From an uncultured Endomicrobiia bacterium (GTDB taxonomy: Bacteria > Elusimicrobiota > Endomicrobiia > DTEH01): a DNA stretch of 51,949 nucleotides. A model generated the notes under the pieces. That model was not told the DNA's origin and ran no database searches. It saw only the letters and a list, made by a program, of their open reading frames with translations. A program made the position numbers and the translations under genes. Position 1 is the stretch's first letter. Each line of letters begins with the position of its first letter. This document shows, in pieces, positions 1-26,955 of the stretch. The stretch covers positions 1 through 51,949 of the forward strand of contig CALFVX010000018.1 in assembly GCA_937928765.1 (NCBI GenBank), written 5' to 3'.

Positions 1-67
1 AAAGTTTAAAATAAATATTTTAAAAATTAAACTCTAAATTTAAAAAAATTCTAAAAAGGAGAAAAAT

Positions 68-22715: not shown

Positions 22716-22988
22716 ATGGTTCTACAAAAAGAAATATTTTTAATAGAAAAAATTGAAAATTTAGAAAGCCAAATTGAAAATTTAGAAAAAAAAATTGAAG
22801 AATGTGTAAATTATATAGAATTTTTAAAAGCAGAAAACAAAAAACTTCAGACAGATATAAAACTTTTAGAAGAAGAAAATAAAAGGTTACAAGGATTATA
22901 CAAAAATTATCTTCAGCTACAATCAAAGACAGAAATCGTTAAACACAAACTTAAAAAAGTTGTTGAAAAAATTACTGACATTGTTTAA
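22716..22988 (+). CDS. Short coiled-coil protein, possibly ZapB-like
   Basis: This 90-residue protein is almost entirely predicted coiled coil, with heptads such as IENLESQIENLEKKIEE and LEEENKRLQGLYKNYL. There is no signal peptide or membrane segment. Its size and heptad pattern resemble ZapB, a cell-division coiled-coil protein that contacts ZapA, and a ZapA-like gene follows after 96 bases. Coiled coils match many families, so the ZapB call rests mainly on context. It starts 6 bases after the hydrogenase ferredoxin gene and may be transcribed with that operon. Confidence 0.5.
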   Translation: MVLQKEIFLIEKIENLESQIENLEKKIEECVNYIEFLKAENKKLQTDIKLLEEENKRLQGLYKNYLQLQSKTEIVKHKLKKVVEKITDIV

Positions 22989-22993
22989 ATCAT

Positions 22994-23040
22994 AAAATTT
23001 TGTATTTCCAAACATTGATTTTAATATTAAAATTTTGTAT
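22994..23040 (+). repeat. Two direct copies of a 12-base AT-rich repeat upstream of zapA
   Basis: AAAATTTTGTAT occurs at 22994-23005 and again at 23029-23040, 35 bases apart start to start. The second copy overlaps the spacer and -10 region of the predicted zapA promoter, so the pair could be a regulator-binding site. With this base composition a chance pair is quite possible. Confidence 0.3.
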
Positions 23041-23043
23041 ATT
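23015..23043 (+). promoter_or_regulatory. Putative sigma-70-type promoter for zapA
   Basis: TTGATT (23015-23020) and TATATT (23038-23043) are separated by exactly 17 bases; they match four and five of six consensus positions. The expected transcription start is about 23050. That coincides with the first base of the left arm of the inverted repeat enclosing zapA (23049), and this agreement raises confidence in both features. Confidence 0.5.
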
Positions 23044-23048
23044 TTTGT

Positions 23049-23418
23049 AAAGTTATAAAAGGAAAAGATTAGGAAATTTTTAAAATGAAACAAAATGATG
23101 TTTTAGAAGAAATTTTTATAAAAGTAGGACCTAGAGAATTAAATTTTAAACCAAACTCAGCTATAGAAAAGATGTTTATTGAACTTGTAGCTGATTATGT
23201 TAATAAAAGGTTTACAGAAATACAAAAAGAACAAGTTGATACAATGAAGACATACGCTTATGCATTATTAGAAATCGCAAAAGAAAAAATTGGTTTAGAA
23301 AAAAAAGTAGAAGAAAAAGTCAATAATTTAGAATTAAAAATTTCTTCATTAATAGACAAAATTGATTCTTCTTTAAAACAATAATTACCTTCCTAATCAT
23401 CACTCCTTTTATAACTTT
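23049..23418 (+). repeat. Inverted repeat enclosing the zapA gene
   Basis: The left arm (23049-23075) and right arm (23390-23418) can pair as a 15-bp outer helix (23049-23063 with 23404-23418) and a 9-bp inner helix (23067-23075 with 23390-23398). An internal loop of 3 and 5 bases separates them. All 24 pairs are Watson-Crick. The whole zapA coding region lies between. The likely zapA Shine-Dalgarno, AGGAA at 23071-23075, is inside the inner helix, so pairing would hide it. The right arm ends with CTTTTT. In transcripts this would be a structured RNA of about 370 bases with paired ends; in DNA it could be a protein-binding site. Confidence 0.65.
23085..23384 (+). CDS. zapA: Cell division protein ZapA-like
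   Basis: This 99-residue protein fits the ZapA family, which bundles FtsZ filaments at the division site. Family-like parts are the N-terminal strands IFIKVGPRELNF, the helix VADYVNKRFTEIQKE, the following TYAYALLEIAKEKI (equivalent to the LAALNIADEL region), and a C-terminal coiled coil to the end. ZapA proteins are poorly conserved, so confidence is moderate. The context agrees: a coiled-coil ZapB-like gene lies before it, and fau lies two genes after it; in E. coli zapA and fau flank the 6S RNA gene. It is enclosed by an inverted repeat and has its own predicted promoter. Confidence 0.68.
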   Translation: MKQNDVLEEIFIKVGPRELNFKPNSAIEKMFIELVADYVNKRFTEIQKEQVDTMKTYAYALLEIAKEKIGLEKKVEEKVNNLELKISSLIDKIDSSLKQ

Positions 23419-23453
23419 TTAAAATAACAAATTATTAATTAAATTTATAACAT

Positions 23454-24743
23454 ATGGAACTCTTTACAAAAAATAAATCTTTACCTTTACCAGCAAGATT
23501 TTTGCCTAAAGATTTTGACGAATTTGTCGGTCAACAACATATTTTAGCAAAAAATTCAGTATTAAGAATTTTAATAGAAAACAACAAATTGTTCTCTTTA
23601 ATTTTGTTTGGTCCTTCAGGAACTGGAAAATCTGCTTTAGCAAAACTTATTGCTAAAAAAGTTGATGCTGAAGTTTTTGAAACAAACGCTACTACAGTTG
23701 GGATAAACGAATTAAAAAAAATCATAAACACAAAGAAATATTCTCAAAAAAAAGTCTTAGTAATTTTAGATGAAATACATCATTTTAATAAATATCAACA
23801 AGATGTTTTATTACCTGAAGTAGAAAATGGAAATATTATACTTATAGGTATAACAACTGAAAATCCATATTATTATGTAAACCAGGCATTGTTGTCAAGA
23901 TCATTTGTAGCTGAATTTAAAAAACTTTCTTATGAAGATCTAAATATAATTCTTAACCGAGTTTTAGAAGATAAGAAAAACGGTTTAAAAGATTATGAAT
24001 TAAAAATATCTAAAGAAACACTTGATTATATCATACATTATTCTGATGGAGATGCAAGAAAAATGTTAAATGCAATAGATATTATAAGCAGTTATGCAAT
24101 AACAAAAAATATTAAAGAAATTAATTTAGATATTGTAAAACAAATTATACCACAAGTCTCTTTTAAATATGACAAATCATCCGATTATCATTATGACCAT
24201 ATTTCAGCATTTATAAAATCAGTTCGTGGTTCTGATCCCGACGCTTCTTTATACTGGATGGAAAAAATGTTGATTTCAGGTGAAGACCCAAGATATATAT
24301 TAAGAAGATTAATAATCCTTGCTTCAGAAGATATCGGCAATGCAGACCCTTTTGCTTTAGTTTTAGCAACTTCTGCATTACAAGCAGTAGAGTTTGTTGG
24401 TATGCCTGAAGCTGAGATTATTTTAGCACAGGTTGTATGTTATTTTGCATGTACTGAAAAATCAAATGCTAGTTATGAAGCTTTAAAAAATGTTAAAGAA
24501 GAAATACAAAAAATACCACTTAAAGAAGTTCCTGACCATCTAAAAGATCCTCATAGAGACAAAGAAACTTTAGGTCATGCTAAAGGATATCTTTATCCTC
24601 ATAATTTTAAAGATGGTTTTGTTGTACAAAAATATATTGATTTAGACAAACATTTTTATTTCCCAAAAGACATAGGAAAAGAAAAAGAATTAAAACAAAG
24701 ATTAGAAAAAATTAGAGAAAAAATAAAAAATGAAACTACCTAA
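23454..24743 (+). CDS. rarA: Replication-associated recombination protein RarA (MgsA), AAA+ ATPase
   Basis: This 429-residue protein is an AAA+ clamp-loader-like ATPase that acts at stalled replication forks with single-strand-binding protein. It starts with the family block LPARFLPKDFDEFVGQQHIL. The Walker A is GPSGTGKS (residues 53-60), the Walker B region is LVILDEIHHFNKYQQD, and sensor 1 is ITTENPYYYVNQALLSR. The C-terminal half carries IRRL-type tetramerisation features (LRRLIILASEDIGNADP) and the typical ending HAKGYLYPHNFKDGFVVQKY. It starts 35 bases after the right arm of the zapA inverted repeat. Confidence 0.94.
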   Translation: MELFTKNKSLPLPARFLPKDFDEFVGQQHILAKNSVLRILIENNKLFSLILFGPSGTGKSALAKLIAKKVDAEVFETNATTVGINELKKIINTKKYSQKKVLVILDEIHHFNKYQQDVLLPEVENGNIILIGITTENPYYYVNQALLSRSFVAEFKKLSYEDLNIILNRVLEDKKNGLKDYELKISKETLDYIIHYSDGDARKMLNAIDIISSYAITKNIKEINLDIVKQIIPQVSFKYDKSSDYHYDHISAFIKSVRGSDPDASLYWMEKMLISGEDPRYILRRLIILASEDIGNADPFALVLATSALQAVEFVGMPEAEIILAQVVCYFACTEKSNASYEALKNVKEEIQKIPLKEVPDHLKDPHRDKETLGHAKGYLYPHNFKDGFVVQKYIDLDKHFYFPKDIGKEKELKQRLEKIREKIKNETT

Positions 24744-25410: not shown

Positions 25411-26955
25411 ATGATAATGTTAATCTTAGGTATAGTGATTGGTTTAATAATAGGTTATCTAATAAGATTTTTTTATGGAAAAAAACTTTTAACTTCTGCT
25501 GAAATACAAGCAAAGAAATTAATTGAAGAATCTAAAAAAACTGCTGAAGAAGAGATTAAAAAAGCAAAACAAGAAGCAAAATATATAATAGATAAAGAAA
25601 AACTAGAGTTTGAAAAATCTACAAGAGAACAAAGACAAGAATTACTCTCTTGGGAAAAAAGACTAAGATATAAAGAAGAGAATATCGACAAAAAATATGA
25701 AATATTAGATAAAAAAGAAAAAGAATTATATGATAAAGATAATAGACTAAAACAAGAAAAAATTAAAGTAGAAGAAGAAAGAAAATTTCTTCTACAACAA
25801 CAAGAAAAACAAAGACAAATGTTAGAAAAAATTTCTGGATTAACACAAGAAGAAGCGAAAAAAATTTTGTTACAAAGTTTAGAAGAAGAAGTAAAAACAG
25901 ATTTTGCTATAAAACTTAAAAAATACGAAGAAGAACTAAAAGAAACCGCCGATAAAAAAGCAAAAGAAATTTTAGCTATTGCAATACAAAGAGTTGCATC
26001 TGATGTTGCAGTAGATAATACAACAACAATAATTTCTATACCAGACGAACTAAAAGGAAGGATAATTGGTAGAGAAGGAAGAAACATCCGTGTATTTGAA
26101 CAACTTACAGGCGTAGATGTTATAGTAGATGATACTCCAGAAAGTTTAGTAATCTCATCATTCGATTCTGTAAGAAGAGAAATAGCAAAAATAGCAATGG
26201 AAAAACTTATTCAAGATAGTAGAATTCATCCAGCAAGAATTGAAGAAATTGTTAATAAAACAAAAACAGAGTTTGAAGAATATGTAAAAAAAATAGGTGA
26301 AGATTTAGCCATAGAAGTTGGAGTTTTGGGTTTACATCCTGAAATACTTAAACTTTTAGGTAAATTAAAGTTTAGGACATCTTATGGACAAAACCAACTA
26401 CAACATACAAAAGAAGTAGCAATTATAGCGGCAGCAATTGCAAGCGAATTTAATGCAGATGTTGCTTTTTGTAAAAAAGCAGGATTGCTACACGACATCG
26501 GTAAAGCTGTAAGTCATGAAGTTGAAGGCACCCATCATCAGATTTCTGCTGAAATTGCAAAAAAATATGGAGAATCAGATAAGATGTTAAATGCAATTCT
26601 CTCCCACCATGAAGGCATTGTAGAACCACAAAGTATTGAAGCGTTTATATTATCAGCAGCAGATGCTATTTCTGCATCAAGACCAGGAGCAAGACAGGAT
26701 ACTGTAGAACATTATATAAAAAGAGTAGAAAAAATTGAAGAAATTGCAAAATCCTTTCGTGGAGTTGAAAATGCATATGCTATATATGCAGGAAGAGAGG
26801 TTCGTGTGATGGTTGAATCTGATAAAATAAATGATGCACAGACAGCTGTCCTTGCAAGAGATATAGCTAAAAAAATTGAAAAAGAACTTGATTACCCTGG
26901 ACAGATAAAAGTTGTTGTTATAAGAGAAGTTAGAGTTGAAGATTATGCAAAATAA
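25411..26955 (+). CDS. rny: Ribonuclease Y
   Basis: This membrane-anchored endoribonuclease initiates mRNA decay. The 514-residue protein shows the full architecture: one N-terminal transmembrane helix (3-20), a long charged coiled coil (about 25-190), a KH RNA-binding domain around 206-270 with [20 protein letters not shown], and an HD domain with the metal-binding His361-Asp362 in [14 protein letters not shown]. The start has a strong Shine-Dalgarno (AAAGGAG) after an 88-base gap, so it probably begins a new transcription unit. A 16-base palindrome (25348-25363) lies in that gap. Confidence 0.96.

Follow-up and report, generated by a model that had tools for sequence, protein, structure and literature searches.

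Complementarity between the start region and the 3' UTR of zapA suggests a fold-back mRNA in a family of Endomicrobia

Few bacterial mRNAs are known to fold back by base pairing between their 5' and 3' ends, and we know of no RNA biology of this sort in the phylum Elusimicrobiota. In Staphylococcus aureus, a 7-nt motif in the icaR 3' UTR, 260 nt after the stop codon, base-pairs with the Shine-Dalgarno region on its own mRNA; the pairing keeps ribosomes from loading and generates a site for RNase III. In the other staphylococci examined, the icaR 3' UTRs lack the motif (PMC3868564). An interaction between the 5' and 3' UTRs of Bacillus subtilis hbs controls RNase Y cleavage, as summarized in later accounts (Braun et al. 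2017, via PMC9093591 and PMC11780869), and long-range RNase III duplexes were reported to be common in the mRNAs of this species (PMC11780869). In the hok and AapA mRNAs, 5'-3' pairing locks the full-length message and hides the Shine-Dalgarno sequence, and translation needs 3' trimming (PMC6733600).

The window analyzed here is a stretch of 51,949 nt from an uncultured Endomicrobiia bacterium, in which an inverted repeat encloses the whole zapA gene. The initial annotation knew of no described RNA with such a layout, which is too strong a statement given the icaR, hbs, hok and AapA mRNAs. The locus is organized as follows (all features on the forward strand).

22716..22988, +, zapB-like coiled-coil gene upstream of zapA (Pfam ZapB, E 3.7e-6, below the cut-off)
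23015..23043, +, predicted promoter TTGATT-N17-TATATT with the start expected at ~23050 (pattern match and same-genus relatives)
23049..23063, +, 5' arm, outer helix of 15 bp, AAAGTTATAAAAGGA, pairs with 23404-23418
23067..23075, +, 5' arm, inner helix of 9 bp, GATTAGGAA, pairs with 23390-23398 and includes the likely Shine-Dalgarno sequence AGGAA
23085..23384, +, zapA, 99 aa, enclosed by the arms (Pfam ZapA below the cut-off, and orthologs)
23390..23398, +, 3' arm, inner helix, TTCCTAATC, 6-14 nt 3' of the zapA stop codon
23404..23418, +, 3' arm, outer helix, TCCTTTTATAACTTT, followed by TTTTT
23454..24743, +, rarA, 69 nt 3' of zapA

The repeat of 15 and 9 Watson-Crick pairs with a 3x5 internal loop, as originally described, was recovered at exactly the same coordinates, with AAA facing ATCAC in the loop, and an extra 6-bp helix adjoins the base of the stem. 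The Shine-Dalgarno sequence claimed for the left arm and the T-run claimed for the end of the right arm are likewise in place, the latter directly 3' of the outer helix. Folding of positions 23040-23425, the check proposed with the original description, gave a minimum free energy of -69.3 kcal/mol compared with -51.2 +/- 3.9 kcal/mol in 100 dinucleotide shuffles (z -4.6, 0/100 as good), and the long-range stem was contained in both the minimum-energy and the centroid fold. The complementarity of the zapA arms is not a product of chance. Two Rfam matches near the locus, SpF56 and mir-8303, were both far below the cut-off.

The enclosed protein matches Pfam ZapA with an E-value of 2.5e-4, just below the curated cut-off. 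Its identity is supported by an ortholog from the same family (genome G003, see below) that exceeds this cut-off, together with the zapB-zapA-rarA gene order. A profile of the five ZapA proteins of the family showed no significant match to solved structures. Apart from this locus, a weak second ZapA-like match (E 9e-4) was seen within a 232-aa open frame of a related genome (G002:C74:82-288), and is probably a chance coiled-coil match. Approximately 2 kb downstream of zapA and in the same direction lies an open frame (25411-26955) that, from its sequence as read, we take to be a homolog of rny (RNase Y).

Five genomes of the searched set make up the family, all of them metagenome-assembled and five being a small number: the window's genome (G000) and four relatives (G001-G004). 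Close relatives of the window's genome are Endomicrobia bacterium SKYB98 and SKYB53, of the same genus, and uncultured Endomicrobia bacterium S1_Bin 312 and N1_Bin 092, of other genera of the family. zapA is present in all five, and in each its start region is complementary to a segment just 3' of the stop codon. The core duplexes comprise 18-31 bp (24 in the window) and set in 3-35 nt 3' of the stop codon, with perfect runs of 14-24 bp within the genus. The duplex energies of a genome's own arms (RNAduplex) were -32.1 (G000), -34.9 (G002), -46.1 (G001), -27.0 (G004) and -37.0 (G003) kcal/mol, corresponding to z-scores against shuffles of -5.9, -5.0, -8.9, -4.2 and -5.8. When arms were swapped between genomes, the energies were only -11 to -26 kcal/mol, and a genome's own pair was the best in every row and column of the 5x5 matrix; the true assignment was also the best of 120 permutations (sum of -177.1 versus an average of about -90 kcal/mol for derangements).

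The arms themselves have diverged. In gapped alignments between genomes, identity is ~52-65% for the 5' arm and 43-62% for the 3' arm, values that by our estimate lie near the expectation for AT-rich random sequence. Within the genus, length changes occur in pairs: ATTAGGAA/TTCCTAAT in G000 and G002 versus ATTAAGGAA/TTCCTTAAT in G001, and AAAAGGA/TCCTTTT in G000 versus AAAAAGGA/TCCTTTTT in G001; beside ATTA, a G-C pair in one member is replaced by A-T in another. The initial annotation had named a lack of compensatory change or of arm conservation in relatives as what would refute it, and compensatory change was found across all five family genomes. The comparison shows that the ability of the zapA start region to pair with the 3' UTR has been maintained in a selection-like manner. 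The arms as a repeated element or a regulator site were rejected, since their sequences differ between genomes. Inverted repeats on both sides of a gene also recall an invertible DNA element, with the arms as recombination sites that flip zapA. The arms carry mismatches and loops, however, their sequence varies between close relatives and no consistent antisense frame exists; with zapA in identical orientation in 5/5 genomes, we rejected this explanation as next to impossible.

The pairing of the ends was then compared with that of other genes, a ranking that covered every long open reading frame in sampled stretches of each genome. By complementarity of the 5' and 3' regions, zapA ranked 1/317 in G000, where it was first by both stem score and longest perfect run, 1/110 in G001, 1/81 in G002, 1/74 in G004 and 3/85 in G003. 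These AT-rich genomes do not show such end complementarity in general. As a separate observation, one gene of the window's genome (L123 4650-5225, G000:C3) is flanked on both sides by palindromes of the GAGCC-TTTAGG-CTC type, which look like dispersed hairpin repeats unrelated to zapA.

These rankings bear on whether the repeat is a DNA-level oddity without RNA function, its 3' arm having been made and refreshed by inverted copying of the gene start through template switching or conversion. G-U pairs are indeed rare, with 3 among 159 stem pairs over the family, which is fewer than we would expect from single-step compensatory drift and leaves room for such copying, and in G002 the similarity extends into codons 1-10 and the end of the coding region, as in an inverted duplication. 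Against it, zapA alone carries the repeat, at an equivalent site in each of five diverged lineages, while hundreds of other genes are without it; the arms also contain internal loops and have changed length in pairs. Inverted copying may contribute to the origin or renewal of the arms but would not explain their restriction to zapA, and as a full explanation we regard it as quite unlikely.

Outside the family, 54 of 55 zapA loci from other families of the class were without such pairing. The exception is the zapA of G075, a reduced genome that by size and kinship is probably of an Endomicrobium (L054; G075:C1 ~53716-54100), in which a 25-bp duplex with 2 G-U pairs joins the start region and the 3' UTR over the likely start codon (z -4.7). 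This gene was joint first of 202 by score and first by perfect run, and no 6S RNA was seen 3' of zapA or detected elsewhere in that genome. Given that 55 loci were tested, we treat it as a lead for an independent origin, not as proof. Among 23 further zapA loci of the phylum, that of G008 reached a score z of 3.6 but an energy z of only -2.3, with a shuffle as good, and was not counted.

The part of the message covered by the duplex differs among the family members. Relative to the A of the ATG (position 0), the helices span -36..-22 and -18..-10 in G000, -16..-3 and -1..10 in G002, -28..-5 and -3..3 in G001, -7..10 in G004, and -18..-4 and -1..5 in G003. The start codon itself is thus paired in 4/5 genomes, and the G000 duplex ends at the Shine-Dalgarno sequence (-10). 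In partition-function calculations, the predicted unpaired fraction of bases -15..+6 in the full mRNA versus the mRNA cut at the stop codon was 0.07 versus 0.67 in G002, 0.14 versus 0.43 in G001, 0.30 versus 0.50 in G004 and 0.12 versus 0.53 in G003. The effect was small in the window (0.31 versus 0.38, with 0.27 paired with the 3' UTR), and the predicted occlusion is weaker in its genome because the duplex ends at -10 and only this 0.27 pairs with the 3' UTR. At 60 C, the 3' arm lowered accessibility well below that obtained with shuffled 3' UTRs in G002, G001 and G003, with a smaller drop in G004. All of these values come from programs that ignore ribosomes, which could hold the arms apart.

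The original description had raised the idea that paired ends could block translation of zapA, and with the icaR precedent this is the reading best supported by the folding models and the family comparison. With moderate confidence, we propose that the zapA mRNA acts as a cis-acting fold-back that would occlude ribosome entry and limit ZapA output. The sequence just 3' of the stop codon would pair with the leader and start, with the finished transcript forming a long stem and the coding region its loop. This closed form would hide the site of ribosome entry, at the start codon in four genomes and at the Shine-Dalgarno sequence in the window's genome. Most translation of zapA would then take place before synthesis of the 3' arm or under continued occupation of the start by ribosomes, and an idle, closed mRNA would be silenced and probably cut by RNase III, for which a gene is present, setting a ceiling on the ZapA made per transcript. 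More speculatively, termination of a ribosome at the stop codon, which in 4/5 genomes is 3-15 nt away from the 3' arm, might open that arm, and busy messages would stay open.

The zapA mRNA carries the defining sequence feature of fold-back mRNAs, with a regulatory effect that is predicted. As in icaR, its 3' UTR is complementary to its own ribosome-binding region, in 5/5 genomes (in the window to the Shine-Dalgarno sequence only), and within the genus the 3' arm also has a CCTTCC/ACTCC anti-Shine-Dalgarno motif. Unlike icaR, the duplexes are 18-31 bp long, start 3-35 nt after the stop codon, are kept over three genera and belong to a cell-division gene. The hbs message, as far as the accounts cited above describe it, resembles that of zapA in being small, in serving a housekeeping gene and in an interaction between its 3' and 5' UTRs that ties stability to translation; hbs, however, is a Firmicute gene with a reported role in the control of RNase Y cleavage, whereas the role of the zapA stem is predicted. 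As in hok and AapA, long-distance pairing between the 5' and 3' parts would close the message and hide the Shine-Dalgarno sequence. Those messages encode toxins, have antisense RNAs as antitoxins and form metastable hairpins in their leaders, whereas the zapA product is ZapA-like and not a toxin.

Both arms have to lie on one transcript for the fold-back to form. The promoter originally claimed, TTGATT-N17-TATATT, is present in the window. Pattern matches of this kind were no commoner in the zapA region than in shuffles (5 versus 3.8 expected), but the match gains weight because both same-genus relatives have one at the equivalent position (TTGACT-N17-TATTAC and TTGACT-N17-TATTAT). Members of the genus have 64-100 nt between zapB and zapA, and in all three transcription is expected to start no more than a few bases from the base of the stem. 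The other two genera have 20-23 nt between these genes and show no evident separate promoter, and the start-region pairing is still present. The claim that the repeat begins at the predicted transcription start therefore holds within the genus and not beyond it: the start-region pairing is the shared element and the coincidence with the transcription start a genus-level addition. A local intrinsic terminator (a short-loop, G+C-rich hairpin with a T-run) was sought at the zapA locus and none was found. The predicted promoter position and this negative result fit a single transcript carrying both arms.

The same data weigh on a reading that puts decay or processing first, with the duplex serving chiefly for RNase III cleavage, or as a clamp that shields the 5' end against RNase Y or end-dependent decay, and with effects on translation secondary. 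Perfect runs as long as those of the genus are good RNase III substrates, and both RNase III and the rny homolog are encoded; in addition, the predicted 5' end lies at the stem base in 3/3 genus members, and icaR and hbs offer precedents. The other two genera, however, have no promoter there, which rules out protection of the end as the role common to the family, and we consider it rather unlikely that decay comes first. Alternatively, the newly made 3' arm might capture a free 5' arm when ribosomes are scarce and halt transcription before rarA, as a translation-sensitive terminator. The sequence after the 3' arm is T-rich in the window and G001, and rarA begins 56-86 nt 3' of zapA. We hold this to be very improbable: G002 and G004 are without a U-run, no standard terminator was found and a loop of ~340 nt would be slow for termination.

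The initial annotation had also hinted at 6S RNA, and linkage of zapA and 6S has been described in Proteobacteria (PMC7641849). The covariance-model search suggested at the time gave no match at the inverted repeat, and a 6S identity was rejected with no Rfam or covariance match. Part of the hint stands, as other Endomicrobia do have 6S exactly between zapA and rarA. A class-wide Rfam search found 6S in 51 of 96 Endomicrobia genomes, and in these other Endomicrobia it lies ~20-65 nt 3' of the end of the ZapA match and is followed by rarA. In the window's family, the gap between the two genes carries the 3' arm and, at 56-86 nt, is too short for a 6S RNA of ~155 nt. The arm thus stands where 6S does in other Endomicrobia, but shares with it neither sequence nor structure, and the loop of the zapA stem is the zapA coding region.

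Searches with RF00013 and Rfam over the window, its genome and the class found no 6S in the five family genomes, nor did a model derived from 22 6S sequences of Endomicrobia, or a 6S end-motif pattern, give any significant 6S there. In this family, 6S is either lost or too diverged; we take its absence as provisional, since one 6S-like hairpin, in a different family, escaped the search. That hairpin, of ~88 nt (z -6.2), lies directly after zapA in G005 (L200 1353-1442, minus strand; CCCTGTACTGTTGG...TACGGCATCACGGGG-TTTTTTT), is about half the normal 6S length and is absent from the Rfam 6S results; it is possibly a mini-6S RNA. In G008, a relative of G005, only a trace (CTGAAAGTGTTGG) was seen.

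A broader scenario can be drawn from these observations, although as a whole we rate it as doubtful. The zapA mRNA may have acquired its closing stem when the lineage lost the 6S RNA after zapA, becoming a self-limiting, ribosome-gated switch in which the terminating ribosome would pry the 3' arm open and re-expose the start, leaving busy messages open and idle ones locked; the same might have arisen independently in G075.

In comparison with the known cases, the zapA fold-back would concern a housekeeping division gene and a longer duplex. It comes with comparative evidence over three genera, whereas the icaR motif is not kept even among related staphylococci, and it would tie in with the apparent loss of 6S at the same spot. 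For this family of Endomicrobia, zapA may serve as a ready test case for the control of protein output by 3' UTRs in cis.
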